Part shown: positions 22,201 to 64,000 of the stretch, piece by piece
How positions within the stretch are numbered: position 1 is the stretch's first letter
How the letters are laid out: every line of letters begins with the position of its first letter
Source: Falciphora oryzae
Taxonomy: Eukaryota; Ascomycota; Sordariomycetes; Magnaporthales; Magnaporthaceae
Length of the DNA stretch: 64,000 bases
Direction of reading: 5' to 3'
Assembly (NCBI GenBank): GCA_000733355.1
Contig: JNVV01000026.1
Coordinates: 433,612 to 497,611, forward strand
Notes under the pieces: model-generated
What the model saw: only the letters and a program-made list of their open reading frames with translations
What the model was told of the DNA's origin: nothing
The model's database searches: none
Translations under genes and position numbers: made by a program

Positions 22201-25200
22201 CCCGCGTCCAGCTAAGCAAGCGCAGGAGGTGGCACTCGAGTGCGAGGGAACAAGTGTGGGTTTTGTGTGCCGTGTTTGGGCGCGGAAAAAAAAAAAAAAA
22301 AAAAAAAAACGGCGCCGCGTCCGTCCACCCCCCGTAGCCACGCGGCCGAAGGGACTGGACTGGACCCAAAGGCTCGGAAACCAAGTGGCCGGTTCGCACT
22401 TGGCCACCAGCACAACGCGGAGATGCCGTGGGAGAAAATACACTCCTACCTTACCCATCCCATCCATGCCATCCGACCTGGTTGCCGTCCATTCATCCTC
22501 CTCGCGACCAAACTGATAATCAAATGGTGTCCAAATAAATCAACACCCAGGCCGACGAGCTGCAACGACCCCTGTCGCCACGCGATCCCAGCAACAATCC
22601 TTCCCTCGACCAGGGTTGCGGAGAGATTGTTTCGAAATGCACGCTGTCTTCTGACTTCTTATTCGTCGTTACCCCCGTACGGGTGGTGAGTCGGCCGATG
22701 CCACTTCATTTTCTCACCGTGGCCAGACTGCACGACAAATCACCACCGCCATCCTTGAGGCTGAGTCCTCTGGGTGTCGTGGCGGGGCATGGATTTGGCT
22801 TGTGGTTGCCAAACATGACCCGTCCAGGGCAGCGGTGAGGTAGGTCTGCCAGCTGCCAGCTGCTGCCGGGTGCCGTGTGTCGATCTGGGTGTGGAACCGG
22901 AAGGCGCGACGTATCCATTGCGTGCGTGCATGCCAACTCGGGACATCACAGCGAACACGCATGACGGATGTTGGTCATCGCTCCTGCCCTGCCACAGAAA
23001 CAGAGCCGCGGGGCCCGCGAGGGAACTGAGCTTGAACTGGTGAAGGCGGCTCAGCTCGCTCTGCTCAGCTCCACCCGCCATTTGTCACTCTCTCTCTCCC
23101 TGCCGAGCAACGGGCAAAACACAGCGTGCAACATCCGCAACATCCCATCCCTTTAGCGGCCGCCCCAACGTCTCTCGGTCCCGGCCAAGACGAACGCAAC
23201 GCCTCGGTCGCCAACCAAGGCGCGCTATTGGCTTGTGCCCACAGCATTCTCGGCCGTGGGTGCTCCCAGGAACGGATGGCGCTAGTAAAACACAAAAAGA
23301 AATCCACACCGTTGACGCAATCGCTGGCTGGCTGGCTGGCTGCTGCCGTCCAAAAGGCCTGTCCCTGACGTCCTTTTGCCGCGGGGGAGCCTCTCGCTGC
23401 CATTGGCCCGCGGCGCCGTCGGGGCCCCATTCGGAACCGTCTTGGCCGGGGCTGGGGGACAGCGAAGCGGGCTTTCTCGATTGCCGTCCGCAGCCTCGTC
23501 GCGTCGCACCGCTCTCTGTCTCCCTCTCTCTGTCTCCCTCTCTCTGTCGCCCGGACATGTCGTGTCGATCGGGCCCGGGGTGGGCGACCAAGAACGACGT
23601 GACACCCACGGACGCACACCCCCGGCCACCATCATGATTAATCGGCGATCTCGGGGACCCACCTTCGGGGACCACTTTGTGGGAGGGCACTGCAGAGAGC
23701 GCTGCGGCTTGGGGTTCACTCGAGACTGGCACACTAGGCTCCCACTGGGCTCCTCTGGCTCGCGCCCAATGGGTGGAGGGGATCTGCGCCCAGCTCGCAT
23801 GCCTCTGGCGACCCCCCCCCCCCCCCGGCTCGGGGGCCGGTTCTGGCGATTTCAAGCGAAAATCCCCAGCGGCTTTTCAGCTGAGGCGGGCCTGGGCCCC
23901 ATGTCCCCCATCCGGACGGCTGCAACCTCATTTGGACGCGCCCTGCCTTGGCCCTCGTCCCAACTGGCACCCACAGGCACCCCTCCCTGCAGGTGTGGAC
24001 GGCATGCGATGGCGATCAATCAGTGGGCAAGCTGAAGATCCCCCAAACCCACAAAATTCTGGCCCTGGCACCCTGGCTCCCCGACACCCACCACGAGCCA
24101 CCTTGTGTGCCTGGCACTGCGAAGCACACTACTGCTGCTGCCGCTGCCGCTACCGTTGCTGCCCGCCTGTGGCCCTGCCTCTGCGAGTTCGTGCCAAGAC
24201 CGGCTCCATGTCCAGGTCATCGCACGCGGAATGAAGAGATGACGGCCACCTGCCTTTCCCCCACGCCAATGCTGCGGTCCTGAAACCACGACCCTTCATC
24301 AAGATGCCGGAATCCAAAAGTCTAATTGTCCGTGTGCGCAATTTTCACAATATCCATGATGAGTGCTCCCGTGCTCGCTCTGAGCCGAGCCCGCCAGCTC
24401 CCAGGCGAGCGCCGTGGTAAGCCCTGGCGCTCGACGATAACATCATCAGACCACGAACCACCACCGCCTCGCTTCGATGGAAGGTGCGCCAGTCAGCTGT
24501 CGCCCAGCAGGCCCTGCATGCCTCATCACATTAGAAGGCTCCGGAGCGGCATACGGACGTAATGCACTCCTTTTCAGCATCGATGATGGGGCTAGCCACG
24601 CATACCATAGCAGCAAAAACCAACAGCCCTCGCCTCGCTGGCCCTATTCGAAGTTCAGCTGCGGCGAATGACCCCCCTCAGAGACTGGTGCCTCGTTGAG
24701 GTTGAGGAAAACTCGAGAATCCCAACTGGTCGAAAGCCACCCAGCGGGCTGCGGTTGCATCATGGTTCCTCCCTGCCTCTAGGGATGGAGGGGGAGTGTG
24801 TTTAGGGGCACGTCCCGCCCCCTCCTTCTGACAAGCTACCCTGTAATTGGCCCTTTCCTGAGGGTCTCCTAGTCTCCACCACCCAGTGGGAAAAAAAAAG
24901 CACGATGGCAGCCGGCACACGCCCCTTCCTCTAACGCATGCCCCCCCTCGCTAAGGGTTTCATTGTGCCCGGGGCGCCAACGGCCGTACCCAGATCGTGG
25001 ACGCTCTTGCGACAGAGAAGCAGAAAAAAGAAAAAGAAAAAAAAAAAAAGAAAGACAGGCCAAATCAAACCGCCGAGGCCAGCTCAGCAGACCTGAACCA
25101 AACAGGCGTGTTTCTGTGGGCATGCTTCCACACGCCACAAATTCTCAGTACACGCACGCACACGCACACACCACCGACAGTCAGGCTGGTGCCCCTGGCA

Positions 25201-29300: not shown

Positions 29301-30507
29301 CCTCCTTCGGTCTTGTCTTTGTTGTTTCCGATGTCTTGTTTCTTCTCTGTCTAGTTACATACCCCCTTGGCTCTGCTGTGTTACCCGCGCCTCTTGTTTT
29401 CTGCCCAGATCTGTTTTCTCAAATCCCCACACGCCAACGGAAACGCGAACACCAACGCACGCACACAAAGGTAATTCCAACTTCCTACTGGCCTTGCTCA
29501 TCTCCCGACGACGCCGTCTCGACCTCGGGGCCCTCCCCACCACACCAGCGCCTCTTTTTCGTCTCGCGACTGCAAGCCCTGTGGAGACGGAGGGGGAAGG
29601 GGAGGAGGGAAGACACAAACGAGTGGAGTCAGGGGGTAGGTGTAGATATCAAGGCTTGCATCCTGGACGGATCCAATGGCATCGAGACATTGAATACCTC
29701 TCTGTCATGAAGGGTGACGGGATCCCAGTAGGGTACTTGTGTGTCTTTCTCTGTTTCGTTGTGTATTGTGTGTCTGGAGGTGCGTACCGATGTAAATGTG
29801 TGGATGTGTGTGTGCGCGCGCTTGTGCTTGGTCTATTCTGTTTCTGTATTGAACCAACAGGCCCGCGTTCCCGCCCATCAAGCCTGCGTAGCGTGGACGT
29901 GTCTCTGTCCGTGTCTGTACCTAAAATGCATGGACCGAAGAAAAAAGCATTTTGTTCCTTTTTTTTTTTCCTTTATTTATCTGAGGGAATAACCCACCGG
30001 TTTCTAGCCGACGACGCGCCGGTCACTGGCCCAGAAACATACACGCCCCCTGCCTCCTCGGTCTCGAGTTTTCATTTTCTTTCTTTTTATTGTGTACGTA
30101 GACAGTTCACCATCCCGCATTAGGCCCTGGAGCCTGCATGGTGGATGGGTGTGGTTTTTTTCACTGCAGGAAAAAAAAAAAAGAAAACGAGTGGGACTTG
30201 GCCGGAGAAGGAAGGGAACATGGCAGGGTAAGGGGGAGGGTGGGATCGGGAGGAGGGGTGTTTAAAACGAGAAAGAGCGAACGCGAGGGGAGACGAGGAG
30301 GAGTCACGGTACCCAGCAGAGCAGGGGACGACAGAAACATTGATGAGCCCCCGGGGGGTGGGGTGGGGTGGACGGGGCGATCAGGATCCCGCCACAAAAA
30401 CGGCCGTTCCATCTTGAATACACGACATATAATCCCTCTTTTTCATCCAGCCAACTGCATCCCCTGGAAGGGCAGGCCGGTCCCCCTTTTGACGTTGAAC
30501 GCTGCCC

Positions 30508-30508
<1 letters not shown>

Positions 30509-30542
<34 letters not shown>
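30509..30542. repeat. Poly(T) tract of 34
   Basis: Longest homopolymer in the window. Poly(dA:dT) of this length disfavours nucleosomes in fungi (established). It could also be a retroposon tail remnant, although no adjacent element is seen. Confidence 0.9.
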
Positions 30543-31193
30543 CGTTTGTGGCCGCGCGCGCGCTAAGTGATGATGGGAGGGGGAACCAGACACAGACAAG
30601 ACAAGACGCGCGGGAGGCCCGATCAAAGAACAAGAAAGGCGCCGGCCGGCGGGCGTGTGGGTTCGAACGCGGCCGCTTGAAGCCGAGTGTGTGTGCACAG
30701 GAGGCGGGTTAGGTTTAGGCCCAGCCAGTTTTTTTTTTTTTGCCAGATGCAGCCAGAGAAGGGAAAGGAGAGAGAGATGGGCCTAATACACAACAAGACA
30801 CAGAAAAAAAAAGAAAGAAAAAAAAAAACTCACACGCACATGTACACCTTGGTTTTTCTTTGTTGGGCCGTGTGCAAGGAGCGGAACGCCAGCCAGCCAG
30901 CCACAGCCAGGCTAGCCCCGTCGTCTTCCTGACTAGTCCGTTTTCGGACCCCTTGATGGATGGGGGGCCATCTCAGGTGTGCCTTTGGTTCTCGCGGTTG
31001 GGACCAAGAAGCACACGCCCTGGCCGGGGGGCCCCTGAGACAGCGAATAACAACGGCGGGATATTAGGGGTCGGGCAGGGCCAATGGGCTCGTGGGCTGG
31101 GACATTCCGTTCGGCAGTAGTGATGGAAGCAAAGAATGGCATAAAAATGCATTTTTTTTTGGTATTGCGGTATCATGGCGTCTTCCGTGTTGA

Positions 31194-34691: not shown

Positions 34692-37600
34692 CTAGAGGTG
34701 AATGTCACCCCCTTCGCCCGCGACCCATCTCCGCCAGGCTTCGTCGTAGGCGTCTTCTAGATCCCGAACCCAGCGCCGCGTGTCAAACAGCGCACAGGTC
34801 CACTTGCTCTCCCAGAGCAGCCGCCGCAGCTCGGCAAGCCGGCCCGAACCTTCGCCGTACCCGCCAGGCACGTTGAACCGGTACGAGAGCCCGTTGGCAA
34901 GTTTGACAGCCAGGTTCTCGTAATCGACGTCATCCTCGGCCACCAGCTCCGACGCGGCGCGTATGCCCTCCTCTGACTTGGGCAGTGCGCCCTTAAGGAT
35001 CGAGGCGGCCATGCGGGAGCACATCTTGTACTCGTATCTCGGCAGCGTCAGAAGCGGTGTGCTGGACCACAAGATGTCCGCTGCCGTGGTGTGCGCGTTG
35101 CACTCGGGTGTGTCCAGGAATAGGTCGCAGACTCGGGCCCGCGAAATGTGCTGTTGCTTGGGCGCAACATCGGTAAACAAGATGCGGTTGGCCACATGCT
35201 CGCCGGCCCACTCCTTGGCCGTTCGCTTCAGGTTGGTCTCGCCCAGGTCTGGGAAACGGAGGAGCCAAAGGATGGCCTTGGGAACCGCTGACAGGATGCG
35301 CAGCCACGCCCTGAAGGTCGTCGGATCGATCTGTGTAGTGTTTGTCGGTCAGTAATGAGCAGCTTTGCTATACATGTTATGTTAATCACAGACGACTCAC
35401 CTTGTAGAGCTGGTTGAAGTTGCCGAGGATGATGGTATCGTCGGGCAGGTTGGGAAACAGCTCTTTGCGCATCTTCCACCGCCGTCGCTGCTCCTCCTCC
35501 CACGACATGTTCCGCTCGTCCTCGACATCGGCCGACTGCGCATGGTCGCAGCAGAAGAACGTGTCCCTGCAGTAGATGATGTTTTCCGAGTACACCCAAT
35601 CGCCATTGTCGACATCTGCCTCGTCCTTGAACACATCCTGGAGGCTGAGGTTACCGCGCCACGGTCGAAGCGTCGAGGGCGGCACCGCGGTGGCGTCTGC
35701 AAGAAGGTAATCGCACCATTCCGCGCCGAGAGTGCCGGCGAAGCCCATAAATGACATCTGAATTGGTGCCGGGCGCGCTGCGAAGATCTCGTTCCGGGCC
35801 CCGCGTGTGTAGCCGTTGAGGTTAACCAGGATGTGAATGCCGTCTTGCACGATCTGGTCCACAAGCTTGTCCGAGGACCAGCTGCTCACGTCGCGGAACA
35901 CGGGCGCTTCTCGCTCTATCTGCTGCCGATGAATCGACTTGTCGCTCGCCGTCGTCGCATAGCAGAACGCCTTGACGCGCGTCTGGTCGTGGAAGCCAAA
36001 GACGGACTGCATCAAATGTGCCAGCGGGTGGTTGTTGAAGTCCGACGAGAGATAGCCGACGTTCAGCTGTGGTTTGGGAGGAGCCGGTGGCGGATATACG
36101 GAGCTGGACAGCCAGGGGGCGCGAAGAGTCGAGCACGATATCCGGTGCGCGTTGCGCTGAGAGATCATGCGGATGTCCTTGGCCGTCAAGGGGCAGGTGA
36201 AGGTGTGGAAGGGGAGGACGGTAGGCGCCGAGGGGATCGTGAGGCTGCCCGGCAGGCGAGGCCTGGGGTAGCCTCCCGCCGCCTCCTGGCCTTTCACATA
36301 CTTGTCCAGGTACCACGTTCGCACCGCCGCCCGCGTGGCGCGCTCGATCAGGCGAATGATCCTCGAGCCCTCCCACGGTTGATCCGTCCACTTGCGCAGT
36401 TCGGCTTCCAGGTCGATCGAAGTGTTCGTCGGCTTCGCGCCCGAGTTGGTCAGCTGGGAGACGAGGAGCGCGATAGCAGTCTCTACGAGAGTGCCGGCGC
36501 CCCACGACGCCGACTCCTGGAGCTGGCGCCCGACGATGTCCACCACTCGCTTCATCAACCCGCTGCCCTGACCGCTATTCCTGACGTCTTGGAGCATTCC
36601 CTGCTCGTCAACGTGCCAACGGTCAAATTTTGCGCCGTACAGATATACGCCTCCTCTTCCCCTCCAGTCGCAAACCGAGTTCAGGGCCGTCGACAAGCCG
36701 CAGACGGCCTCGGCGAAGTCTGGGTTAGATGTTACGGCGCGCTTGTAGTACATGATAGCGTCGCTGATGCGGCCTCGGTCCTTAACCGCATTCGCCAGGT
36801 TGGTAAGCGCTATGTCGAACGTCCCGTCGCACGCCACGGCCCGTTCGTACATCTGGATGGCCATGTCGAGTTGCCCGATGTCCTTCAGGAGACTGCCCAG
36901 GTTCGTGTGGAGGTGGACGTGGTGAGGATCCAGGGTAAGGCCGTACTGGTAATAGAGCAGCGCCAGCTCGAGCCCGCTGCCGCGCACGATGCCGGGGATA
37001 TTCTGCACAAGGGCCGCTGACTCTGGAGACAGGGGCTCGATCTGGGCCGCCGATTGTTGTACACTGGCAAGGAGAATTCCGACGTTGTTCGCTGTCGAGG
37101 GGCTCTCCTGAAGGGAAAGAGACAGGTAGTAGAGGGCGAGAATGTCACCAACGCCAGAGGCCTGTCCGCCTTGGCCCGGCGGCGTGCCACCTGTGGCCAT
37201 GGAGTCCTGGAATATCTTGGCGAGCGAAAGCAGGGAGTTGCTAGTCGTGGAGATGGCTGACTTGCGATGGCTGCCCTCCCCGACATATCGGAGGCCAGGG
37301 AGTTGGGCGTTGGTCGAGCCAAATACGAACCGTGCCGTCAACTTAGCCCGGTCCGGTGGCAGGAGAAGCGGGCCCGACACCGGCCTGCGCACTAGAGCCC
37401 CGGTGGTTGAGGGCATGGCTGACTGGCTGGGTCTGGGCGACAGTACCGTCTGTATCTCGCGGATCAAGCTCTGTATCCCTCGACTTTGCCTGCCGGTGCT
37501 GATCATGACAACCTCCTCAAACGCCTCTGATGCGCGCTCGATGTCCTTTAGGGCATAGAGCATGTTACCTTTGGCGTGAATGAGTAGAAGCATGCGACCG

Positions 37601-39558
37601 TTCTCGTTGCCTGGGATCATGTAGCCGCTCGATCCGAATCCCGGCTGGTTCGACGCTTCTGCGAAGGATGATGACGACGGCAGGGTCTGAGAGACTGCGT
37701 CGCCCTGAGGCGGCTGGTGTTCGGGCATGCGAAGCCCCCGCTGAACGCGACTTATAATGTCCACGGCCTGCCTGCTGCGCTGGGTCGAGCAAAGCAGGCC
37801 CACCAGATGCTCGACGGCTTCAAGATACCCCGGTCGGAGGGTTACAGCCTCTACCCAATACCTCTCAGCCTCATCGTGCCTGTTCAGACAGTATAGGGTG
37901 GCAGCGATATTGGAGATGGCCTCGACATGACTTTTTCGGGTCACTGGGTTAGTATAAATCTCGGGGAGGAATAAGGCGGGAAATGGAGATGATCGGTACC
38001 TTGCGTCGAGGTTGGTGATCCTCTTGAACCAGTCCAGAGCCTCCTCGTAGCGTTCCAGGCCGTAGTGCAGACAGCCACCGAGCAACATCCCATCGACCCA
38101 TTTCCACCCGCTCTGCTCGCACAAGTTGGTGAGCATCTCCAGAGACTGCCTAGCGCTGGATACCGGCGAGGGAAGCTCGGCCGGGTTTCCGCTCCCGGCA
38201 CGGTACGTCTTGCCCGCATATGCATACTCGGCCTGGCCAGAAGGCCCGAAGGCCGACTCAGCACCGGCGAACGAGCCGTGGGGAGCGTGCATCGCCGCGG
38301 TACGGCGAAGAGGGCCCAATGACAGACCCAGCTGTTTGGGTGGCTTCGGAAATACGACCATCTTGGACAATGTCCGGAGACCAGACATGGTCTTCCCAGG
38401 AAGCGACTGCTTCGTATAACTGATATACACAAGGAGGTCGGCATATGTCTTGTGCGCGTGCGCAAGAACCCTCTCCTTGAACCGAGCAGGCGTTGACAGG
38501 TCGGAGCGCGAAGCGAGGCTGCCGGCCGGGCTGGCGGCAGCCGAGCCGTGCAGGGATAGTGATTCGAGTCCACCGCGGGGCAGCTGCATTACCGTCTGAG
38601 GTGGCCGGAGCACTCCATGGTCCGTGTCGAATCCGGGAATTGGGGCATGCATGGCGTGGCCCTGGACAGGGCCGCCAAGCATCTGCTGGCCCATTGGGAG
38701 GGGGTGGTGCATGGAGTTCTGGGCTGGCATATATGCGGCGTCAAAGGCGGCATTCTGGGGGATAAAGCCTAAATTGGACAGGGGAACTTGGCCACGGTAA
38801 TCTGACACTCCGGGGTCCTTCCACACGGGTGGAGGAGTGAATCCGGCTGGGTTGAAGGCGGTTGGGCCCATGGTATTATGCTGGTACGACGGCGTGAAGA
38901 CGCCCTGAAGCCGTGGGTCGTAGCTGAACAGGTTCGACGGAGGTTGCTGGGGGGCCATAATCCTGTCCGGCAGCGGTGCGCCGTCAGGCTGTATGGACTG
39001 TCCCAAGTTCCATCCCGCCGGCTGGGTCTCGTATCCCCCACCGACCTGCTGCCCTGTGGGCGGGTACTGCCAGCTGTTGTTAGCCAGGTGCAACTGGCCG
39101 TTGACTGCGTCGGCCAGTTGAAGGTTGTTCTGGACAAACGCGGTCGGGAAGATCTTGGGAGAGGCCGGGATGATCAGCTGCTTCTGCGGGGGCCCGATGG
39201 CCAGACCGGCGGGCGAGCCATCGTAGCCGGCGTCGATGGTCCCGCTAGGCGTCTTTCGTCGCAGCTGATGCTGGCTGTGATCGGGTTGTGCCTGGGGGTG
39301 GCTCTGAGCGAACGGCGATGCGCCGGGCGCGCGATAAGAGGACTGCTGCTGCTGCGATGGCTGAGCGGGCTGCGAACTCCGGATCGGGAATGGCCTGGAG
39401 CCGACGTTTGGGCCCGGGTAGGGGTTCGATGGCCTCGGGTGTCGGGACTGTTGACATAGTGCCAGGTATTCGGGTTTGATGTGGTTCGAGACGGGGAGGA
39501 GGTGCTCGAAGTGAGGAGGCGTGGGCACCATCGGGTGCATCTGCATTAAGGGCAACAT
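34692..39558 (-). CDS. O-GlcNAc transferase (OGT, GT41)
   Basis: Three exons, 38000-39558, 35401-37930 and 34692-35330, give 1575 aa. Roughly the first 330 residues are Pro/Gln/Ser-rich and disordered, TPR repeats follow, and the GT41 catalytic region occupies about residues 1140-1550. Catalytic landmarks seen are YLSSDFNNHPLAHLMQS (human OGT His498 equivalent, here about H1154), NLNGYTRGARNE, GNFNQLYK, then VAPKQQH (UDP-binding Lys equivalent, about K1421) and CNAHTTAAD (about H1443). The enzyme transfers GlcNAc from UDP-GlcNAc to Ser/Thr of nuclear and cytosolic proteins. The 'intervening' domain between the two catalytic lobes is much shorter than in animals (about 50 residues). Intron 35331-35400 has GTGAGT and ACACAG. 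Intron 37931-37999 is 69 bp, stop-free and in frame; I remove it because of its GTACCG donor, ATACTAAC branch site and AAAAAG acceptor, and because the TPR helix then joins cleanly. Start ATG at 39558. Confidence 0.92.
37931..37999 (-). other. Stop-free in-frame intron (69 bp) in OGT
   Basis: Donor GTACCG, branch ATACTAAC and acceptor AAAAAG inside a TPR unit. Its length is a multiple of three and it has no stop, so an unspliced message would carry 23 extra residues (from RYRSSPF to VTRK) instead of terminating. Confidence 0.75.
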
Positions 39559-42500: not shown

Positions 42501-43126
42501 TCGCCTAAACATACACACCTACGGACCGCAGGTTTGAGGCGAGCAGCGCGGGAGGGTGCGTTGATGCCAAAGGCCAGCTGGTCTCGCCGGTTTGTGGCAC
42601 ACACACACCTACGTATACATCCGTTCCCACCGGGGTCACGGGAAGACTCACCTCGCCGATAACGTCAGCTGGCGGGTGGATGGGGAGAGGCGGCGCCGTT
42701 AAATGGCTCGTAACGACTTACACCGTGCCTGGAGGGTCCCCGATTATGGTTGCATATTACCATGTGTTTTTCTTTTCTGTCCCACATTCCAGCTTCCATG
42801 GTGCGCAAAGTTGCATCCAACCACGGCCGCCTTTGCAATGGGGAGCTGAGAAACGAGGACGCACACGGCCGGACGCCGGCTCCTTAGCTTCCATGCGTGC
42901 CATGCTACACTCTGTTCTCTTCTTCCACTCAGGAAGCATGTCCCGCTGGTGTGTTGAAGTCAACCGCCACGCATGCCCTGCCGGTATTGGCTGATCGGCT
43001 TGCAGGCTGTCGATCCGCCTGACATGTTTTCATGCAGAAACCTGGCGAAAAGCAAGGTGACACGAGGCGAAGTGGAAGAAGGAGACGTGCATTGGCTGCG
43101 GCTAAGATGAACAATACGAGAAAGCG

Positions 43127-43159
<33 letters not shown>

Positions 43160-44228
43160 CAGGCCACACTGCCGCCAAAATTGTCCGTCCTCTTGCAACC
43201 AACGACTCCAAGCAAAAAGGCCAAGCTGGACAAAGAAAAGCAGGCACGAATACGGGCTAGATAGGTGTAGATTTCGGTGCTGTCAGGTAATAAACGACAT
43301 CAAGGTCTCGATAGAGCCCTGAAACACGCTGCTCCCCCGTATCTTTCCTTGGATCCTGGGCCCCGTTTCGGATCTGCATTTGGTGGCCACCTAGACGGCA
43401 CGGCAGTCTGCGGCAAATGGATAAACGTGAGGCCGATCTGGATGCATCACTGACGCAAACGCCGAACTCAGCTGAGGCTCTGGGCTCCTGTCGTGTTCCT
43501 GCAAAAAGTACCATTTCTGCCAAGCCGGCCCGGCCTGGCAGGGGATCGTCAACCCGGCGGCACTGCGGCACGGAGATCCCTCAAAACACCCGCCGCATCC
43601 GAAGAGGATTTGAGTGTACACCGTGCCATCGTGCCGATCCCAAACTCCCAGCCAAGGCCAAATCCGCTCCGATCAGTCCGAAAATTACCAGGTGGTCAAT
43701 AGGACGTAGTCTGTAGACTTGTCAGAAAATGCAGGAGCAAGACACAGCCAGGGGCGCAAAGCAATAGCTCGCCAACCTTTCACCGCTGCCGGGCGGAATT
43801 GCAAGTCGGCTAGTTTGGGAGTATGTCAGCTTCAAATGATGGACCGCTGCTTCCACCTGTAGCAGGAAGCCGCGGTGAGTAGTGAGCCGATTAGTATCAA
43901 TCTTCCTCGGCACCAAAATTGAGACAGCAAACGGGGAGCTTTGTCATCTCAGAGTGTAGGCCAGGTGGTGGAGAGTGCCTCCGTGTCGTGGGGGAAATAG
44001 TACGCAGGGCGGATGGAGGATCGTCGAACCAAGTCACTTTACGTGCTGGTGCTGCCCATCTGCTTCTTGCTTCACTTCGTGAACATGTTCGCGCGCAGAA
44101 ACCACGATGCCATAACCTTTCCGTTTTGTAAATTCCATGGCTGGGCAAGCCTAGTTTTCAAAGCAAGCCTGAACTCCAATTCACATGCCCCAAAGAAGAA
44201 ATTCCCGAATCGTCGTTGTTCGTTTCGC
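39559..44228. other. Intergenic, 4.7 kb
   Basis: Contains the CT/GA-rich 5' leader and promoter of OGT (39559 to about 40300) and the 3' side of RPL12. An A31 tract lies at 43127-43157. No gene is supported; open frames on both strands lack family features. Confidence 0.5.
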
Positions 44229-51166: not shown

Positions 51167-52816
51167 ATGTCAGAACCAGATCCGAAGCCGGCACCGATCC
51201 CCAAATCCAAATCGACAAGCACTCTGACCGACAGCGAGCACATAATGACGCCTGACGAAGGCGCCACGTCGCAAGGGTCGTCCTCGCCGCGCGAGCGCGC
51301 TGAGAGCAACGCCGCCCCCATGCTCCCCGAGACCCCGACGCTCGGGGCGACGACGCCCAAGAGCCCACGCCTGTCGCGCAACCCGTCCTTCTCGGGCAGC
51401 AGTTCGTACCAGGAGGACTGGGAGGCGCTGCCGCCGCTCGACCGTCTGACCGTGCTCGACCTGCTCGACAACTTCGCGTTCCCGCAGCAGCTCGAGCTGC
51501 AGTTGGGCAAGATCCAGAAGGGAATCTCCAAGTCGCGGCAGGCCCTCCGCGCGAGGGGACAGGTAGCGCGCGAGCGCATGGTGGAGGAGTGGCGCCAGCG
51601 CGTGCCCTCGGCCGACGAGCAGCTGGAACGGTACCGCAAGCGCATGCGCACGAGCGTCGAGAAGCTGGGTCGCCAGTGGAACGACACAAAGGCCGTGACG
51701 GCGCGCGAGAAGGTCTCGTTCATCTGCGGCGTCATGAACATTTTCATCAGTGGCTACCTCATCGGTGGCTTCCCTGAGTGGATGCCGCTGTGGTACACGG
51801 CCCAGGTGCTCTACTTCCTGCCCATCCGCTTCGTTACCTACCATCGCCGTGGTTATCACTACTTCCTCGCCGACCTTTGCTACTTCGTCAACTTCCTCCT
51901 GCTCCTGAGCATCTGGGTCTTCCCGAATTCCAAGCGCCTCTTCACGGCCGTCTACTGCCTCGCCTTTGGTAACAACGCCGTCGCCATCGTCATGTGGCGC
52001 AATTCGCTCGTCTTCCACAGCTTCGACAAGGTCACCTCGCTCTTCATCCACATCATGCCCTGCGCCACCCTGCACTGCATTGTCCACCTGGTCGACATGG
52101 CCTACCAGGAGGCCCGCTTCCCGGCTATCTATCAGGTCAAGCACTCACCCAAGGGCTCCCCGACCGCCTACGCCAACGTCATCTCCATGTTGGCCTGGTC
52201 CACCATCCCATACGCCTTCTGGCAGCTGTCATACTACTTCTTCATCACGGTCCGCCGCCGCGACAAGATCGCCGCCGGCCGCCCCACCTCCTTCACCTGG
52301 CTGCGCAAGTCCTACTCAAAGACCTGGATCGGCCGCATCGTCCTGGCCCTGCCCGATGTGCTGCAGGAACCCGCCTTCATGATGATCCAGTATTCGTACG
52401 CCGTCCTGACTATGCTGCCCTGTCCCGTCTGGTTCTACAGCCGGTGGGCCTCGGCCGCCTTCCTCATCTTCGTCTTCGCCTGGAGTGTCCACAACGGCGC
52501 CACCTATTACATCGACGTCTTTGGCAAACGCTTCCAGAAGGAGCTCGAGGCCATGAAGGCCGAGGTCTCAAAGTGGCAGAGCCACTCAGAGTCTCTGGCC
52601 AGCCCGCCTCTCGGGCCCGTCCATGACGGCGCCAGCAGCATCGGCGGCGACGCAGACGACGCCGAGTTCGAGTCGGCCACGCCCTCGGGTGACGGCGCCA
52701 AGAAGGCCGTCCACGACGCCATCAACGTCATTCCTCTACTCAGTAGCGAGGACGAGATCTCTGCAACAGGGGTCGACAGTGGGGCCAGGGACGTCGCCAG
52801 AGAACGGAAACAATGA
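51167..52816 (+). CDS. GPC1: Glycerophosphocholine acyltransferase 1
   Basis: Uninterrupted 549-aa frame starting at an ATG in a good context (aaagATGt). Residues 1-85 are Ser/Pro/Thr-rich and disordered, and residues 90-180 are a charged helical stretch with EWRQRVPSADEQLERYRKRM. From about residue 180 there is a polytopic membrane domain (formerly DUF2838) with conserved strings REKVSFICGVMNIFISGYL, FVTYHRRGYHYFLADLCYF and MWRNSLVFHSFDKVTSLFIH; several hydrophobic helices continue to about residue 465. The tail is acidic and disordered. Yeast Gpc1 acylates glycerophosphocholine with acyl-CoA to lysophosphatidylcholine in the endomembrane, so the same role is inferred. It converges on the micro-exon gene, whose last exon lies ~250 bp away. 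Confidence 0.9.
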   Translation: MSEPDPKPAPIPKSKSTSTLTDSEHIMTPDEGATSQGSSSPRERAESNAAPMLPETPTLGATTPKSPRLSRNPSFSGSSSYQEDWEALPPLDRLTVLDLLDNFAFPQQLELQLGKIQKGISKSRQALRARGQVARERMVEEWRQRVPSADEQLERYRKRMRTSVEKLGRQWNDTKAVTAREKVSFICGVMNIFISGYLIGGFPEWMPLWYTAQVLYFLPIRFVTYHRRGYHYFLADLCYFVNFLLLLSIWVFPNSKRLFTAVYCLAFGNNAVAIVMWRNSLVFHSFDKVTSLFIHIMPCATLHCIVHLVDMAYQEARFPAIYQVKHSPKGSPTAYANVISMLAWSTIPYAFWQLSYYFFITVRRRDKIAAGRPTSFTWLRKSYSKTWIGRIVLALPDVLQEPAFMMIQYSYAVLTMLPCPVWFYSRWASAAFLIFVFAWSVHNGATYYIDVFGKRFQKELEAMKAEVSKWQSHSESLASPPLGPVHDGASSIGGDADDAEFESATPSGDGAKKAVHDAINVIPLLSSEDEISATGVDSGARDVARERKQ

Positions 52817-53063
52817 AGGATATGACTGGTTTGTTTTCTTTTTCTCTATTTTCGACGTCACGGCCACTCAAGATATCCATGCTCTTTTTGGCGTCTCTGG
52901 TTCTGTTAGCATGTTATCTTGGCTTTGCACATGAATGTTCTCGTTTTTGGGGGTCGTTCAGACGGCCCGCTCTCATAATGGATTTTATGGTCCGCTGGAG
53001 TGATGACGACTGCCCACGTCTGCCCTCCCTCAGCCCGCACCTACCAAGTTTCCATCATCGAAA

Positions 53064-55018
53064 TCATCTAAATGTATGATATTTGTAGTTAGTATCAGGA
53101 CAGCATTTTTGTATTCCCGAAGAAAGACCAGATGCACTTACTCCTGCTGCGACTGCTGCTGCTGCTGCTCCTTCTCCTCCTTCTTCTTCTTCTCTTCCTC
53201 CTCCCTCTCCCGGTCCATCTCCTCTTCCTCCTCCAGGAACTGCCTCATGTTAGCAACACCTCATCGCAAACCATACTGCATATCAGTTAGTTACCTGGCG
53301 TTGGAGCCTGCATCTCTGTCACAGGACATGGTGTCAGACTGATGGGGTCTTCAAGTCTGCTATGATAGCGAGCAAATGCACATACGGCCGCTTCGTTGGC
53401 GGCCTCCTAATCAACATTTAGTCACAAACATCGTCAGGAAATGGGATAAAAAAATAATAATAATAAGACAGGAAATACTAACCAGTATCTGGACCTCAAG
53501 TTCCTATCGAGCCGGTATCCTTGTGGTTAACATTGGTTTCTTTGTAAATACAACACCGCGCCACATAGAACGGTCTTTACCTCTTTCTTCATTTCATAAA
53601 ACTTCGTGACGAGAGCACGAAGGATATGGCTGTTAGTAGCACTCTGACTAGATATCTGGAACGTTTACTCACGGCAATCCGTCTTGCGTGCTTCTGTAAA
53701 AAGACGCATTAGCATTACATCTCGGAAACGCTAAGAGTAGTTTATTTTAATGGGAGAAGGTGAGTATGGTGTTTGGGAAGGATCCAAGGTCATCTGAGGC
53801 AACTATAAAGAAATGAAGCCGCAGGAAGAGAGGCCGGAATGGGGAAAAGTGAAATAGAAGTCGAGAGGCACTGGTTCAAAGTGCTCACTGGAAGGGGGAG
53901 AGAGAAAAAGAGAGCTACTTACCGCAGCCAGTCTCTCGTGGTGGAGCTATGGGTATGGACACAAATCAGTCAGGAATGTGATTATGTTTAAGAAGAGACT
54001 GGGGTGGCACTTACAGCCATCTGCCTACAGAACTCCTGGCACGAAGAAAGTGTAAGTGTTAGCACGAGCACCGCTTTTTCCCTGCAACAATATGGATGCT
54101 TGTACCACGGCGCCAAGAACCTAAGCGACAACGTGGATTTGTTAGTCAATTTAACGCGGGCCAACGGACAGGAAAAGCGGAGGAGAGAGGATAATGTCGT
54201 TTACGTTGATGTCAGGGGTCTATAAAACCACCAATGCGTGTGCGGTCAGCAACGGTAAATCCACCTCGCAAAGACAGTGGCTAGAAGAGGGACCGTCTCC
54301 GTATCGAAGGAGGAAGCGGGTGATAGGGAAGCAGAACGAGAGCACGAACGTCCGACGGCATTTCTGCGAACTAGATAGCATATGTCAGCGCCGAGTACAA
54401 GAACAAGAGAAGAGTCACGGCAGACAGTTCGCTCCAGTGGATGATATATACTTCTTGTTTAAGTTGGTAGTCTTTCAGAGGCAAGTAGGTTAGCTCGAGT
54501 GTCGGTGTACTCAAACTGTTAGAGAAAGGAGAGACAAGTTGAAAAGGGAATAGAGGGGAGGGCGGTGAAAGGACAGTGGAAGGAGGGCAGAAGGAGGGCG
54601 GTTGAATGAGGGTAAAGCTCAAGATATAGACAATATATAGGGCCAAATGTCGAGCTGGCATCAAAAGAGTGAACCCGCTGTTGGAGATGTACGTGCTGTT
54701 TGATGGTTTGTGGTCTAATAGGCAAATAGCATCGTGTTAGCTAGGTGGCCATCGAGGTACAAGCAGAAACCAGGAGCAATCATCCGAGAGGGAAGACTAT
54801 CAGACCAGGGGGAACGTACGGCTCCGCAATTGTGGTGTCTGCATCAATTGTGCTGCCGGTTAGCGATCTAAACGCCTAAAAAGAGCAACCAATGTCGACA
54901 CGGCGGCGCTTGGAAAAGGGGAAAGGGGCATGGGGTTGCGCGCGAAGGGTATACGTACAGCGATGGTATCAGGTGGTGCCAAGGAAAAAAGAAGAGAAGA
55001 AAGGAAAGGAAAATTCAT
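53064..55018 (-). CDS. Unrecognised micro-exon gene encoding a heptad-modular coiled-coil protein
   Basis: Reconstructed from splice signals: 15 coding exons and a stop exon, about 160 aa. Exons (nt): 54959-55018 (60), 54820-54875 (56), 54693-54714 (22), 54452-54493 (42), 54350-54370 (21), 54205-54219 (15), 54106-54120 (15), 54015-54035 (21), 53923-53946 (24), 53673-53693 (21), 53581-53601 (21), 53483-53503 (21), 53386-53406 (21), 53295-53315 (21), 53142-53239 (98) and 53064-53067 (4). Nearly all junctions are phase 0; only the exon 2/3 and 15/16 junctions split a codon. Introns are 55-229 bp with GTAAGT/GTGAGT/GTACGT-like donors, CTAAC/CTGAC branch sites and AG acceptors. The N-terminus is hydrophobic (MNFPFLSSLLFSLA). 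The middle exons encode single helical heptads such as EFCRQMA, FYEMKKE or EAANEAA. The last large exon is a Glu/Lys/Gln coiled coil beginning FLEEEEEMDRERE. I recognise no family. Exons 1, 4, 6 and 7 are the least certain. Function is unknown; a protein-interaction scaffold is inferred only from the coiled coil. Confidence 0.65.
53068..53141 (-). other. Last intron of the micro-exon gene, overlapping a stop codon
   Basis: Perfect GTAAGT donor, TACTAAC branch and TTTAG acceptor. If retained, the frame stops at the TAA inside GTAAGT; if spliced, it stops at TGA in the next exon. Both routes give the same C-terminus, ending SQQE. Confidence 0.65.
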
Positions 55019-55292
55019 CCCGAACCCAAGAAAAGTGTCTATCCAGGCCCAGTCTGCACACGGAAGTCACCACAAACCGCTTGCCTCCATCGTGCATTCC
55101 CTGTTGGGAGCTCCTGCCCAAGAACCGCAGGCCGCCAGGTGCGTTAGATGTCGAGGGCACACCTCTCACACAACCGTAATCCTGCACCCAAAGCATATGA
55201 ATGTGCACATCTTCAAAATCGCCTTTGTTATCCCCCTGTCTCCGTTTAGGAGCCCGTTCCAGCACGACACAGGTGGCTGCCCGAAACCCCGA

Positions 55293-55456
55293 GTCTCCAA
55301 AACACAAAGCAATGGTCGGGACGCGTTGCGCCGTTACCTATCACTTGGACCAGCAGCATATTCTACCGACGTATACACTCAACTCCCTCTTGGGCCAGCA
55401 GCATCTGCTACCGACATATCTACTCAACTTCCTCTTACTTGGCCGCCATGCCGATC
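55293..55456. repeat. Dispersed repeat copy A with 45-bp internal duplication
   Basis: Shares with 62359-62485 the sequence from GTCTCCA through CGCGTTGCGCCGTTACCTAT to TTACTTGGCCGCC. Copy A contains two tandem versions (55344-55388 and 55389-55433) of a 45-bp unit CTTGG.CCAGCAGCAT..CTACCGAC that is single in copy B. It lies ~280 bp upstream of the micro-exon gene start. Probably a transposon-derived fragment, with no coding capacity seen. Confidence 0.8.
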
Positions 55457-57803
55457 ACGTCTCCAGCAGGCGGTCGCTGTTGTTCCTCTGGTATCCGAAA
55501 GATGGAAGTCGAGGTGCATTCGATTTGAGTATAAAGTAGTAAGTATCCAGGGTACCTAAATACCACTTGGGGTGTATTGACGAGAGAAAGGCCACCTTGT
55601 GAAACTCCTTTGTGACTCCATCGAGTAGCTGAATGAGTGTGATAATGGGACATCAAGGGCGAATTTACCCTTACTAAAAGGTGCTTTATATATATAGAAT
55701 AAACACAATGCTAATAGGGCGACCGGGCGGGCATCTTGGCCGGTCAGTCGCGGAACGGCCGTCGCGACGGCACGAAACACGGGGACAAGTGGGACTGCGG
55801 AAACAAGCTCGTTCGCGACGGAAAAAAAAATGGCACCCCATTGGATTGCTTCAATTCTTCCTGTCCTATATCTTTTTCCCGTGTCTTTTTCCCGTATCTT
55901 TTTCATGTATATTTTTTTCCTGTTCCTGTGTCTTTATGTGTCTTTTTTTTTTTGGCAGTGGTGCAGGCGGGAGGTGCCAACTTTTTTTTGTCGTGGAAGG
56001 GGCAGGGGGCTAAAATGGAAGAAAACAAACGCCACGGCCAGGCGCGGATGGAAGCGCGCAACTGGGCCAACTGTTGGGCTGCAGGAGAGCCTGACCAATG
56101 GGGCCGCGGCAAAGAGGGCGACACCCCTGCTCTAGGCCCCTGACATGTGTCCTGGAACCTCTGCTTCTGACCAGTCGGACGCGTCGGGGCCGTTTGGACC
56201 GCTGCCGCCACACTTCTCATCCAGGCCGAGCGCTGCGCAATCTGAAAACAAAACAAACAAACCCCCGTGCCCCTCCACGTCAACTGCAACGGCTTGGATG
56301 GCAGGCGATGCCGCTCGAGGGGGGCCGGGATTAGCTGCGTTCCTGTAGGCCTCCTTGGCTGGGACCTGCTTTTCTTTTCTCGCAGCGGGCAAAACACAAG
56401 AAAACGCGACAAGTCCGGTCGTGGCCCTACATGACGCCCTGGGAGATATCGCTGCACTGGGGTGTGTGGGATGGACGTGTTGGGCGGTGTTTATTGTCCG
56501 TCTGTTGTGCCCCTGAGCATCGTGCGTGCATCACCAGCGCGTGCGCCACCGCTATTTCAATAGGGATCCCGCCATGCCATGTTTGTTGTTGCAAGGTGGG
56601 TTCTTTTTGAGTCGCGCTCCGTCCCTTTCCCCTCGAACAGATCACGGAGACTGTCAACATTGTCAATTGGCTGTGGTTATTCTAAAAAGCAATGGTGTTT
56701 TGTGCACGAGCCTGCCTCTCGCTTCTTTCAGTGTTCGGTTTCAATAGCATCAGCCAGGGGCGGATTACGATCAGTGCTTGCCAGCCCAGCCTCCCCGCAA
56801 TGTTGTTTTCTGCAACCAGGTGGCCGGCAAGGCGAGGCAAGGCAAGGCAATTGATGCGCGCGGGACAATGACGACAAAAAATGGGGACAGACGATTGAGG
56901 GAAAGAAAGCGAGGGTTGAGTGCTGAGAATGGACTGCTTCTTGAACACCAAGTATGCACCCAGAACAATAGAAACCCGCCTATTGTGATTTTTATTGTCT
57001 GATCTGCTTGATATTGTCGACCTCTCAATAATCCGGCGTGATGTTCTCGTCCAGCATCGACACTGGCGGGCTGGCATGCAGTCTTGGATCTGGGGCCCAA
57101 GTGAGGGTGAATTGGAGACCCGCCGTGTTAGCGTGCCTGAGGGTCCTGTGTTTTGACCAAGCTACCGACACGCCTGTGGAGGGAACGCGCTAGCCCGCAT
57201 TGGTACTAGTCAGCCTCCCACCTTAGCGCGACCGGCTCCCAGCTCCCAACCCCAAACCCGCCCATCGCCTTTCCGCTTCGCACCTCGACTCGCACCCATC
57301 AACACATCACGCACCGTCGCTTGCTGCGAGGACTCGCAGCACCAAACCACCTACCGACCGCCAGCATTCATATCCGCCACCTTGCTTCCTCCCCGCCGAC
57401 ATACCTGCAAGGTTCTCTTCGCCTCCTAGCTTCAAGCCATTCGTCGCGTTTTCTTTGTCGGCCCTGCGACGCACGAACCGCCCGCCAAATCCGAAACCGA
57501 GGAGGATGCGATAGGTCCTCCCCGTTCTTGCTGCTTCGTCGACGACAATTCCGACGCGCCTCGCACCAAATCGACCGCCTGGGTGCACGCGCCAACTCAA
57601 CTCATTCGAGAGGGCATTGCGGCAATCTCTCACGTCCTTGAATTAAACTATCCCTGCCTATGCTCGAAGCACCTCGCAATCCCGCCCGCAACTGAGGCCG
57701 ATCCGAGATCTTGCTTCTCTCTACCTTGCGAACCAGCCACGACCGCCTCGCTACTGGCCGACAACTCGCATTCTTCTATACGACCCGTGCCCCGCATCCG
57801 AAG
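55457..57803. other. Intergenic plus 5' UTR of cdh1
   Basis: No supported gene from 55457 to about 57200. From about 57200 to 57803 the sequence is C/T-rich with short frames and is best read as the long 5' UTR of cdh1. Upstream frames with ATGs (for example at 57583) could act as uORFs but show no conservation that I can judge. Confidence 0.45.
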
Positions 57804-59796
57804 ATGGGTGCCATCTCGGATGCTCTCGCCGGCAACGGCCTGGCATCCTCATCGAAACGCCCCGTCAGAGACTCGCGCAGTCCTGCCATCGCGACACCTG
57901 CCAGGAGCACCACCCCGCCCCCAGCTTCAGACCGCGCTCGCTTGGAGGCCAGGCATCATTTTGATCCTAGCGGCTCACGCAGCTCGCGGGGCAGTGCACG
58001 GGCGAGCGACGTGGGTATTGGCAGGGAAAGCAGCCTGGATTCAGATGCGGTAAACCATGCTCTCAGGAGGGAGATGCTGAGCAGGCAGCAGAGGGAAACT
58101 ACGCCAAACGGAAGCCCGCACAGGAAACGCCAGCGGATAAATGGTGACAGGTGAGCCTCACGTCCAGCCCCGGACGCGTCGGTGCCGCCCGGGCGGAATG
58201 GATCGGGCAATCGGCCATGCTCACACGTTTGCCATTCAGATTTATCCCGACCCGATCAGGTCAGGACTTGCAGGCGGGCTTCAGTTTGTTGCACGAGGAT
58301 GGCTCCCCGGCGACCCCGTCCAAACAAAAGAAGCGTACTCCGCACGGCGAGCTTCATTTCCAGAAGAGTAGGCACCCCTTTTCGGCACCCTTTGGCCCAA
58401 TGCTATGGATCTGGCACGGTTGCTGACATCACCTTTAGCCGAGGAGGCAAACCGCACCTTCTCGACCCTGCTGCGGGCCGAGCTTTTTGAGAACTCGATC
58501 CCACAGGCAGCTCCCGCACCAATAGACCACACCATTCCATCATCGAGGGGGTCCAATGTGCACGATGGCACCAGAGCACAAACACCTCCCCACAACCCCC
58601 CGCCATCACTCCCTGCCTCATTAACCCCCTCAACCCCCCACAAGAACCTGTTCTCGTATATGTCTCCCCGCCACAACAGTATCGGCGGGCATCCGACACC
58701 ATCACGGACACCACAGAGCCGACATGGCCCCAACCTGGACACCAGGTCTGAAATTTACAGCCTCTCTCCCGTTCGGTTTGGCAGCCAGCAGATGCTCTTG
58801 AGCCCCCGCCGGCAACCAAGAGCCGTCAGCAAGGTGCCTTATAAAGTGTTGGACGCACCAGAACTAGCCGACGATTTCTATCTGAACCTTGTCGACTGGG
58901 GAAGTGCCAACGTGCTTGGAGTGGGCCTCGGTTCCAGCGTGTACATGTGGAACGCGCAAACGAGTCGCGTCAACAAGCTGTGCACCCTAGAGGACGACAC
59001 GGTGACCAGCGTATCCTGGATCCAGAAGGGCACGCACATCGCCATCGGCACCGGCAAGGGCCTCGTGCAAATATGGGACGCAGAGAAGACTCGGCGGTTG
59101 AGGACGATGACCGGACACACCGCTAGGGTCGGCTCTCTGGCCTGGAACACACACATCCTGACCTCGGGCTCCCGCGATCGCCTCATCTACCACCGTGACG
59201 TCAGGGCGCCCGACCAATGGCTCCGGAAGCTCGTCGGCCACAAGCAAGAAGTCTGTGGTCTGAAGTGGAATTGCGAAGACGGGCAGCTGGCGAGTGGAGG
59301 CAACGACAACAAGCTGATGGTGTGGGACAAGCTCTCGGACACGCCACTCTGGAAGTTTTCAGATCATACTGCCGCAGTCAAGGCGATGGCCTGGTCTCCC
59401 CATCAGCGGGGACTGCTGGCATCTGGCGGTGGTACCGCTGACCGGCGCATCATCTTTCACGACACTTTGCGAGGCACCGTCATCAACGAGATCGACACGG
59501 GAAGCCAGGTTTGCAATCTGGCCTGGTCTAAGAACTCGAACGAAATCGTGTCGACGCACGGCTATTCCCAGAACCAAATTGTGGTCTGGAAGTACCCCTC
59601 GATGACCCAAGTCGCCAGCCTGACGGGTCACACCTACCGAGTGCTCTATTTGGCCATGAGCCCAGACGGACGCACCGTGGTCACTGGCGCTGGCGACGAA
59701 ACTCTACGGTTCTGGAATGTCTTCGGTCGACGGCCCGGGGCCCGCGAAGACGGCGAAAGCGGAGGACGGCTATCTGACTGGGGCATCATTCGGTGA
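57804..59796 (+). CDS. cdh1: APC/C activator Cdh1/Fizzy-related (WD40)
   Basis: Three exons, 57804-58150, 58240-58367 and 58439-59796, coding 610 aa. Intron 1 (89 bp, GTGAGC to ATTCAG) splits the C-box; splicing restores DRFIPTR (residues 115-121), the APC/C-binding motif. Intron 2 (71 bp, GTAGGC to CTTTAG) joins the conserved EEANRTFSTLLRAELFE. A Ser/Thr-Pro-rich linker with many CDK-type sites follows. The seven-blade WD40 propeller starts at about residue 290 (VPYKVLDAPELADDFYLNL), binds KEN/D-box degrons and runs to about 595. The last two residues are the Ile-Arg tail that docks on TPR subunits of the APC/C. Cdh1 drives degradation of mitotic cyclins in late mitosis and G1. The C-box context and linker favour Cdh1 over Cdc20. 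An in-frame non-conserved extension exists 5' of 57804, but the first ATG in the matching frame near the conserved body is at 57804. Confidence 0.93.
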
Positions 59797-62358: not shown

Positions 62359-62485
62359 GTCTCCACAACACAGAGCAATGCCCGGGCCGCGTTGCGCCGT
62401 TACCTATGCTGTCACTTGGCCCAGCGGCATCTACTACCGACATGTCTACTCGACTCCCTCTTACTTGGCCGCCGTGCCGAGCCAC
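62359..62485. repeat. Dispersed repeat copy B
   Basis: Partner of 55293-55456: same start (GTCTCCA.AACACA.AGCAATG), same CGCGTTGCGCCGTTACCTAT core and same TTACTTGGCCGCC end, with one copy of the 45-bp unit rather than two. Confidence 0.8.
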
Positions 62486-62639: not shown

Positions 62640-63045
62640 ACCCCACGTGCTCGGCTATTGGGTTTGACTCTCAGTGGCTGCTGAGATCGTCGTCGGGCTC
62701 ACAGAACGGCTCCCAGCGCTTCTACATGGGGTGACTCCCAGCGGCTACCGAGGGTGTCTTCTGGCCCCTCAACAACGGCTGCCTGCGCTTTTATTGATGA
62801 GAATGACCTCCGGGTGGTTTTTACCCTCGGCAGTGGCACTCATCGTGGGAAACTTCGGGTCCCCTCTTCCCCCACGCCTGCTCGGTAGATACCGGTCGTC
62901 AGCGCTTGGGAGGATTTTCAGCCTCCGGGGGAACTGACCCCCGGAAGCGGCATCCTGCATCGCGGCGAAGGGGACCTTCCAGTCCTATCTTCCTGCAACG
63001 CCTGCTCGGTAAACACCGGTCGTCAGCGCTATGGGGTCCTCCAGT
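62640..63045. repeat. Degenerate tandem repeats beside an assembly gap
   Basis: A motif CGCCTGCTCGGTA..ACCGGTCGTCAGCGCT occurs at 62875 and again at 62999, a spacing of 124 bp with related flanks. Further upstream, looser copies of GACTC.CAGCGGCT.C and GGCT.CC.GCGCTT occur about every 70 bp. The array runs into the gap, so its true length is unknown. Confidence 0.6.
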
Positions 63046-63086
63046 NNNNNNNNNNNNNNNNNNNNNNNNNNNNNNNNNNNNNNNNN
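63046..63086. other. Assembly gap (N run)
   Basis: About 41 undetermined bases immediately after the tandem repeat. Likely a collapsed or unresolved repeat. Confidence 0.99.
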
Positions 63087-64000
63087 GTGCCGGCGGGCAG
63101 TGAAGCCGGACTCTGCGGCCTCCTCGTGGTACTGCTTGGGTAGCGCCGATGCGGAGACGCCAGCCGGTCGGCTGAAATGTATACAGGCATTGGATCTAGA
63201 CCTCGTTTTATTCTCTGCAAGCGTGTTTGGAGCCTGAACAGCATGCCTTCGTGTAGGAGTGTAGGGGTGGCGGGAGGGAGGAATTGCGGGCGATCTATTT
63301 GATATCGGGTGGCGTGTCGGGCGCGAGGCCGATAGGCCATGGCTTGATTGATGTGGACATCGGCGGCACGGCACGGGCATCTGTACAGCACGATGGCGGA
63401 CAGCCCATGGAGCGATCCCACGTGGTGGCTGACATAGATGCAACCCCTGCGTCCCCAAGCACTTGGCCGCCGGCAGGGAACCTATCACGAAGGGCCATGC
63501 ATATTGAGCGTCTGGTAGAAGGGGTGGGACCTTACCTGTTGGAGCTATTGTGCATTGGTCGCCCCAAAGCAGCCGCGCAGTCTCGCGAACCAACAGCCCT
63601 CCTCGAGTCAAATAATGCGGCGTCAAGCAGCTCCCTTGCTAGACAGTTGCCTGGAAGCCCAAGGGATGGAAGGAATTGTAACAAAACCCGTATCGCGGAC
63701 AAGTATAAGCAGGGGTGGGTGAGCCGACTTCCAGCCATCACGACGGACGGATGGTGTCCATTTCCTGAGGTCGGTTGGTGTCGATACTGGCCGTTGGGAA
63801 CTTTTACCAGCAAGATAATTGCAGATAGGTGGAGCGTGTCGACGTTCCCAGTGGACATATATTTGTCCCACCAAGACCACCTGCCGGAACTGGACCGTGA
63901 TAAGGCCGGACCAGACCCATCAGCATAACCAAGATGTCGCAAAAGTACGGAGAAGGAGGGCGAGGAGGACCACAAGTTTTGTCTTTTTGTCGTCCAAAGC
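63087..64000. other. Unassigned region at the right edge
   Basis: Open frames of up to ~215 aa exist on both strands (for example plus 63284-63928), but none shows a family signature or a clear codon bias over its complement. Possibly degenerate repeat or part of a gene that continues beyond the window. Confidence 0.3.

Follow-up and report, generated by a model that had tools for sequence, protein, structure and literature searches.

Our analyses point to a small gene, on the minus strand of the window (the whole 64,000-nucleotide stretch of DNA analysed, whose positions are used throughout), in which most of the micro-exons would be only seven codons long. We put at roughly 0.7 the probability that this is a true protein-coding gene, of which the genome yielded a single copy, with eleven introns, mostly seven-codon micro-exons and a highly charged, likely helical product of about 97 residues. 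The most likely reading is a lineage-restricted gene for a charged helical protein whose frame-neutral exons would permit skipping.

Layout of the predicted gene and its surroundings

For positions 53000-55100, the best structure (63.5 bits) of a semi-Markov gene model is a 12-exon, 97-codon gene on the minus strand, running from an ATG at 54361 to a stop at 53064 (Table 1). The model has no preference for exon size or phase, and its codon usage was taken from four long open reading frames (ORFs) of the window, one of which (35386-39558) was not checked as a gene. The nine internal micro-exons measure 15, 15, 21, 24, 21, 21, 21, 21 and 21 nt, all in phase 0 and multiples of three, and phase 0 holds at every junction from exon 1 through exon 11. 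The last seven of them (exons 4 to 10) form an uninterrupted, stop-free array. The earlier note had described these seven exons of 21 or 24 nt, in phase 0 and separated by introns of 55-229 bp, and each was found exactly in place; also present upstream are the two 15-nt exons (54219-54205 and 54120-54106) and the other 21-nt block that it had set before the array. From exon 1 to exon 11 the introns are 130, 84, 70, 68, 229, 71, 77, 76, 70 and 55 nt long, and the last one, between exons 11 and 12, is 74 nt by the model coordinates, so that all introns but the 229-nt one fall between 55 and 130 nt. Read in the order of the table, the predicted protein runs from MPSD through TPDIN, VLGAV, EFCRQMA, LHHERLAA, KHARRIA, FYEMKKE, ELEVQIL, EAANEAA and RCRLQRQ to FLEEEEEMDREREEEEKKKKEEKEQQQQQSQQE, and EELEVQILEAANEAAR is a tryptic peptide predicted across exons 7 to 10.

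Table 1. The predicted micro-exon gene and its two flanking genes. Acceptor, donor and net support values are in bits.
Feature	Position	Strand	Details
Exon 1, coding part	54350..54361	(-)	MPSD, ATG start; start picked by the gene model; donor GTTCGT 0.66
Alternative for exon 1, internal 21-nt block	54370-54350	(-)	Applies if coding continues upstream
Exon 2, 15 nt	54205..54219	(-)	TPDIN; acceptor 8.1, weak donor GTAAAC -0.2; net +1.4
Exon 3, 15 nt	54106..54120	(-)	VLGAV; acceptor 9.2, weak donor GTACAA -1.8; net -1.3
Exon 4, 21 nt	54015..54035	(-)	EFCRQMA; acceptor 9.7, donor GTAAGT 6.0; net +7.0
Exon 5, 24 nt	53923..53946	(-)	LHHERLAA; acceptor 8.1, donor GTAAGT 6.0; net +6.5
Exon 6, 21 nt	53673..53693	(-)	KHARRIA, 3' of the 229-nt intron; acceptor 8.0, donor GTGAGT 4.7; net +2.3
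Exon 7, 21 nt	53581..53601	(-)	FYEMKKE, weakest exon; acceptor AAG 6.1, donor GTAAAG -0.9; net -3.0
Exon 8, 21 nt	53483..53503	(-)	ELEVQIL; acceptor 7.6, donor GTTAGT 2.7; net +3.5
Exon 9, 21 nt	53386..53406	(-)	EAANEAA; acceptor 8.1, donor GTATGT 4.4; net +10.0
Exon 10, 21 nt	53295..53315	(-)	RCRLQRQ; acceptor 8.6, donor GTAACT 1.6; net -0.4
Exon 11	53142..53239	(-)	Glu/Lys/Gln-rich tail FLEEEEEMDREREEEEKKKKEEKEQQQQQSQQ(E); acceptor 9.7, donor GTAAGT 6.0 overlapping in-frame TAA
Last exon, start of	53064..53067	(-)	Acceptor 9.2 at 53067; completes GA/A TGA, Glu and stop
Convergent neighbour Gpc1, glycerophosphocholine acyltransferase (Pfam DUF2838)	51167..52816	(+)	PF10998, E=1.9e-47
Divergent neighbour, CDC20/Fizzy-type WD40 APC/C activator	58405..59796	(+)	PF24807 WD40_CDC20-Fz, E=4.7e-129

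The stop codon of exon 11 (53138-53142) overlaps a perfect donor, GA/GTAAGT, which makes the 3' end of the gene splice-neutral. If the last intron is kept, the sequence reads GAG TAA, and if it is removed GA/A TGA, both of them giving a protein that finishes in SQQE. The spliced model scores 63.5 bits versus 59.4 bits for the unspliced one, with an identical translation.

The micro-exon gene stands tail to tail with Gpc1; its divergent neighbour is presumably Cdh1-like. Another neighbouring gene carries an SMC_hinge domain (E 7e-29), and we take it to be SMC1. Upstream of the micro-exon gene lies a dispersed repeat, present in the window at 55293-55454 and 62359-62480 in copies that are 82-89% identical, the first with an apparent internal duplication of about 60 bp; a search of the genome places this repeat in three places, the third on contig C47. 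Elsewhere in the window, base composition jumps within 14001-16000, from 44% GC at 14-15 kb to 71% GC at 15-16 kb, and long ORFs of the two strands overlap there. Short, mutually similar tracts at 6985-7020, 10325-10366, 20294-20332, 22282-22320, 30504-30553 and 43111-43166, some of them inverted, are apparently simple repeats, and a minus-strand ORF at 62985-63638 contains a short run of masked bases (unknown residues).

Splice signals, codon usage and chance expectation

Donors and combined branch and acceptor sites were scored with fixed weights for fungal introns, drawn from general knowledge; the sole comparison was with two introns, placed by eye, in the neighbouring SMC gene. The acceptors (6.3 and 8.1) and donors (0.2 and 2.4) of these two introns score positively, below the best sites of the array. 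The acceptors of the seven array exons and of the last exon lie between 6.1 and 9.7 bits, branch-like motif included, and a score of at least 7 bits is reached by about 2.9% of the scored minus-strand AGs in the window. The array donors range from a perfect GTAAGT, found twice, down to the weak GTAAAG that follows FYEMKKE.

The exons had first been picked by reading the sequence and its splice signals. A search for phase-0 chains of exons of 12-30 nt, maximal in length, in which codon scores were not used, then recovered eight of these blocks unaided. The controls were 20 segments of 10 kb from the same genome (40 strand scans, with 6,463 of the 200,000 bases being N) and 1000 dinucleotide shuffles. 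With donors of at least -1 and acceptors of at least 5, a pair of cut-offs set after the scores were known, the chain has 9 exons, against 0 or 1 per genome strand scan and at most 3 in the 1000 shuffles. A looser pair (-0.5, 2), already employed in the search that recovered the eight blocks, yields a chain of 8, against at most 4 in the genome scans (reached in 2 of 40) and at most 6 in the shuffles (1 of 1000). With the pair (0, 5) the chain is 6 exons long; the genome scans then have no more than 1 and the shuffles no more than 3. Because the first pair had been chosen post hoc, the semi-Markov model, which works without chain cut-offs, was added. When the sequence upstream of the last exon was shuffled, none of 150 runs reached 63.5 bits (maximum 52.6), and all of them lacked internal micro-exons. 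Among 160 genome-sample segments of 2.5 kb, this model placed no internal micro-exon in 152, one in 5, two in 2 and three in 1, and a run of heptad-sized exons in none. As a feature of the sequence, this array of micro-exons is real.

When the ten small exons are put end to end (64 codons, the low-complexity tail left out), the predicted frame scores +0.28 bits per codon and the two other frames score -0.29 and -0.61. For codons sampled from the introns in between, the mean is -0.45 (sd 0.14), with none of 5000 draws reaching the value of the exons, and the four training ORFs score 0.22 to 0.56 bits per codon. Much of the exon score is supplied by EAANEAA (7.0 bits), and KHARRIA and RCRLQRQ are slightly negative. 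GC content is 55% in the seven exons versus 43% in the introns between them. Stop-free blocks would arise by chance with a probability of 0.037, and the absence of stops is, taken alone, weak evidence for coding. Two plus-strand ORFs, at 54930-55559 and 54155-54493, were rejected as genes, their codon usage (-0.21 and -0.17 bits per codon) not being coding-like.

Frame-neutral exons and the extent of the gene

Intron definition is established for fungi. The short introns of the predicted gene, with their strong branch and acceptor signals, would lead the spliceosome to recognise each intron rather than each exon, which would allow exons as tiny as 12-24 nt to be joined. Most transcripts are probably fully spliced. 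Since all nine internal micro-exons are multiples of three in phase 0, the omission of any of them would keep the reading frame, as the earlier note had reasoned, and the predicted skipping of one exon would shorten the helix by 5, 7 or 8 residues. The weak donors after TPDIN, VLGAV and FYEMKKE would make these the exons likeliest to be skipped. The absence of proline and glycine past residue 14 of the predicted protein, together with 43% Asp, Glu, Lys and Arg, makes an extended helix plausible. We infer expression, helix, skipping and any role in protein-protein contacts from the DNA sequence; that the helix acts as a small partner in a protein complex is a guess.

A more ambitious version, which extends this best explanation and overlaps it in probability, is that the array exists so that skipping yields helices or coiled coils of different length, in the manner of the schistosome micro-exon genes or of the vertebrate troponin T 5' exons with their alternative splicing. 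The nine frame-neutral micro-exons, mostly one heptad each, would then be interchangeable segments that tune coiled-coil length by splicing, ahead of the splice-neutral end. We give this a low probability. It draws on the symmetry of all nine internal exons, with 2^9 = 512 in-frame combinations, on the great variation in donor strength, on the last intron giving the same protein whether kept or removed, and on the length of the exons, six of the seven consecutive ones being precisely seven codons long (with seven equiprobable in-frame sizes the chance is about 4e-4, a figure computed after the fact). However, the heptad core is not statistically established, and a simple register would be thrown off by the exon of eight residues. 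Hydrophobicity is highest at exon positions 2 and 6 as a pair, with a mean hydropathy of 0.72 versus -1.53 at the remaining positions (permutation p ~0.09). Over residues 15-66, the best helical moment is equalled or exceeded in 551 of 2000 shuffles, and the moment at a 3.5-residue period in 1219 of 2000. Strong heptad amphipathicity was looked for and not found, the helical moment being no larger than in shuffled sequence, and a coiled-coil register is hinted at, not significant. The earlier proposal that exon borders coincide with heptad units is therefore true as length but not yet as structural register.

Two possible origins of the array were also considered and are not supported. Tandem duplication of exon and intron units finds marginal similarity among the exons (47 of 1000 codon shuffles were equally similar) and none among the introns (190 of 200 shuffles). 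Introner-like intron gain finds no near-identical intron copies elsewhere in the genome, the 1.3 kb region matching only itself at E <= 0.001 in a search that skipped simple and very common words.

It is unlikely that the gene is shorter than modelled, with only its 3' part coding (for example, from the methionine of FYEMKKE or as 53248-53138) and the upstream blocks being 5'UTR exons or noise. This reading emerges as the penalty per intron is raised. Seven penalties were tried, and only two of them, 8 and 9.5 bits, give the full structure as the optimum; at 11 bits six 3' exons are kept and at 12 and 13 bits five, the model start being 53592 at all three values, and at 14 bits a single 36-codon stretch is left, the exon 53248-53138. 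The net values of Table 1, at a penalty of 9.5 bits, show EFCRQMA, LHHERLAA, KHARRIA, ELEVQIL and EAANEAA to be self-supporting and TPDIN barely so, while VLGAV, RCRLQRQ and FYEMKKE lack individual support and depend on the surrounding chain; either these last three are genuinely weak exons that can be skipped, or they are where the model is least secure. Nevertheless, the upstream blocks keep phase 0 and contain no stops, EFCRQMA and LHHERLAA have the top splice scores of all the micro-exons, and all ten small exons are coding-like in frame.

A longer gene, translated from 55018 or from elsewhere upstream and passing through 54838-54820 and 54714 onward, appears quite improbable. Good splice signals do occur upstream, at 54959 and 54820 (donors), 54838 and 54714 (acceptors), 54471 and 54370/54363; 400 open paths lead from a start at 55018 into the array, and a penalty of 6 bits extends the model to 55090. 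Against this, codons in the open stretch 54736-54371 are used in a non-coding manner (-0.27 bits per codon), and two of the blocks, 54838-54820 (19 nt) and 54714-54693 (22 nt), have lengths that are not multiples of three. The earlier note had let the gene span reach 55018; with such codon usage, a start there was rejected despite the open paths, and translation most likely starts at 54361, where the ATG (context AGAAATGCC) encodes MPSD and is the model start at the default penalty. The upstream signals suggest instead a spliced 5' leader, and two acceptors, 54370 (8.1) and 54363 (8.6), point to a 5'UTR intron immediately before exon 1. The upstream blocks are better read as spliced 5'UTR. The N-terminus of the favoured 97-codon model, MPSDTPDIN, shows by eye no hydrophobic, signal-like leader, whereas translation from 55018, the less likely start, would begin with a hydrophobic leader.

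Relatives and comparison with known micro-exon genes

Protein relatives were sought in a database of about 5.8 billion proteins by a word-based search, which finds only those with common 5-residue words. For a 93-aa query (length window about 51-163 aa), none of 25 word-sharing candidates had E <= 10, nor did any of 855 candidates (about 110-348 aa) for a 199-aa composite scored over residues 103-199. As a control, Gpc1 was searched against this database: of 7997 candidates scored, 1409 were relatives at E <= 1e-60, and relatives bear the name glycerophosphocholine acyltransferase 1. Fungal proteins are therefore present in it; correctly spliced models of such a gene may be absent. The nearest named relative of Gpc1, 79% identical, comes from Pyricularia sp. 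CBS 133598 (another relative is 96% identical). Pyricularia belongs to the order Magnaporthales, and on the testimony of this one gene the fungus looks like a member of that order, not of the Sordariales that the earlier note had named as the place to look for relatives. No match rose above the cut-off in Pfam (best 14.3 bits vs 27.4, and 14.1 vs 26) or NCBIfam (best 12.1 vs 441), and the PDB gave no clear sequence match (best E 0.62). A DNA search of the 50.2 Mb genome found no second copy, the region matching only itself, and a protein search of the genome returned the gene's own last exon and one weak match (E 0.07, 28% identity). The micro-exons are too short to expose diverged paralogues exon by exon, and copy-number searches are nearly blind to them. 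Because of this near-blindness, and because annotation often misses micro-exons, calling the gene an orphan is provisional.

Many short exons and introns, with no homologous protein found, would also be expected of a non-coding, multiply spliced RNA, for example a snoRNA host gene. We consider this very improbable, since no Rfam family matched at gathering score in the whole window and, with E up to 5 allowed near the gene, the two matches lay far below their gathering scores (MAT2A_C, intronic at 53518-53569, has 20.6 vs 47 bits); furthermore, most introns of the gene are apparently too short for a box C/D snoRNA, and the phase-0 open frame has coding codon usage. A chance line-up of splice-like motifs in intergenic DNA, which would account for the lack of a found homologue, is made highly unlikely by the shuffle, genome-sample and codon-usage tests.

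The protein-coding micro-exon gene that we favour has several analogues outside the fungi. The micro-exon genes (MEGs) of Schistosoma are described as having 10-20 very short exons, more than half of them multiples of three, along with introns that measure 0.1 to 5 kb and secreted products with a signal peptide, and as numbering 35 in S. mansoni (PMC10526429). As in that description, most internal exons here are very short and multiples of three. In contrast, the introns here are 55-229 nt, one copy was found, the N-terminus of the favoured model is not signal-like by eye and the organism is a fungus; the likeness to schistosome genes proposed in the earlier note is one of exon symmetry. The bicycle genes of aphids, a large family of putative effectors, are reported to have about 17 exons on average; the small internal exons are numerous, alike in size and almost without exception in phase 2 (PMC9168663). 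The gene described here shares with them, as so reported, the small, similar-sized internal exons of uniform phase, but its nine micro-exons are in phase 0, no relatives were found and it was found in one copy.

Exons 4-8, at the 5' end of the gene for vertebrate fast troponin T (TNNT3), are tiny and rich in Glu. These exons are described as alternatively spliced and of one phase class, with a heptad-repeat domain encoded further 3' (PMC2447309). The exons of the fungal gene likewise share one phase class; their skipping is predicted, and the protein is unrelated. Within filamentous ascomycetes, Xlr2 of Trichoderma virens has a functional micro-exon, none having been described in filamentous fungi before according to its authors, who also note micro-exons predicted in three fungal genes and functional in S. 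pombe (PMC11121469). Xlr2 as described there is a transcription factor with one cassette micro-exon, whereas here the whole gene would be built of micro-exons. Among the titles and abstract beginnings of the matches listed from openly licensed PMC papers, no fungal gene built of a micro-exon array appeared, which agrees with the earlier remark that no described fungal family is known to have heptad-sized exons.

We class the gene as one of the micro-exon-gene kind, outside the MEG, bicycle, troponin T and Xlr2 families. Such genes are easily overlooked by automatic annotation, and others may therefore be hidden in fungal genomes. If the prediction is true, it would provide a natural test of how small a neighbouring exon can be before the spliceosomes on adjacent introns interfere. 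Small one-phase exon arrays are already known in flukes and aphids; a fungal case would mean, if true, that this architecture arises independently, works under intron-definition splicing and has tractable relatives such as Neurospora. On the low-probability reading of splice-tuned coiled-coil length, exon and protein unit would coincide and the gene would be a fungal, intron-definition counterpart of the animal micro-exon genes, independently evolved.
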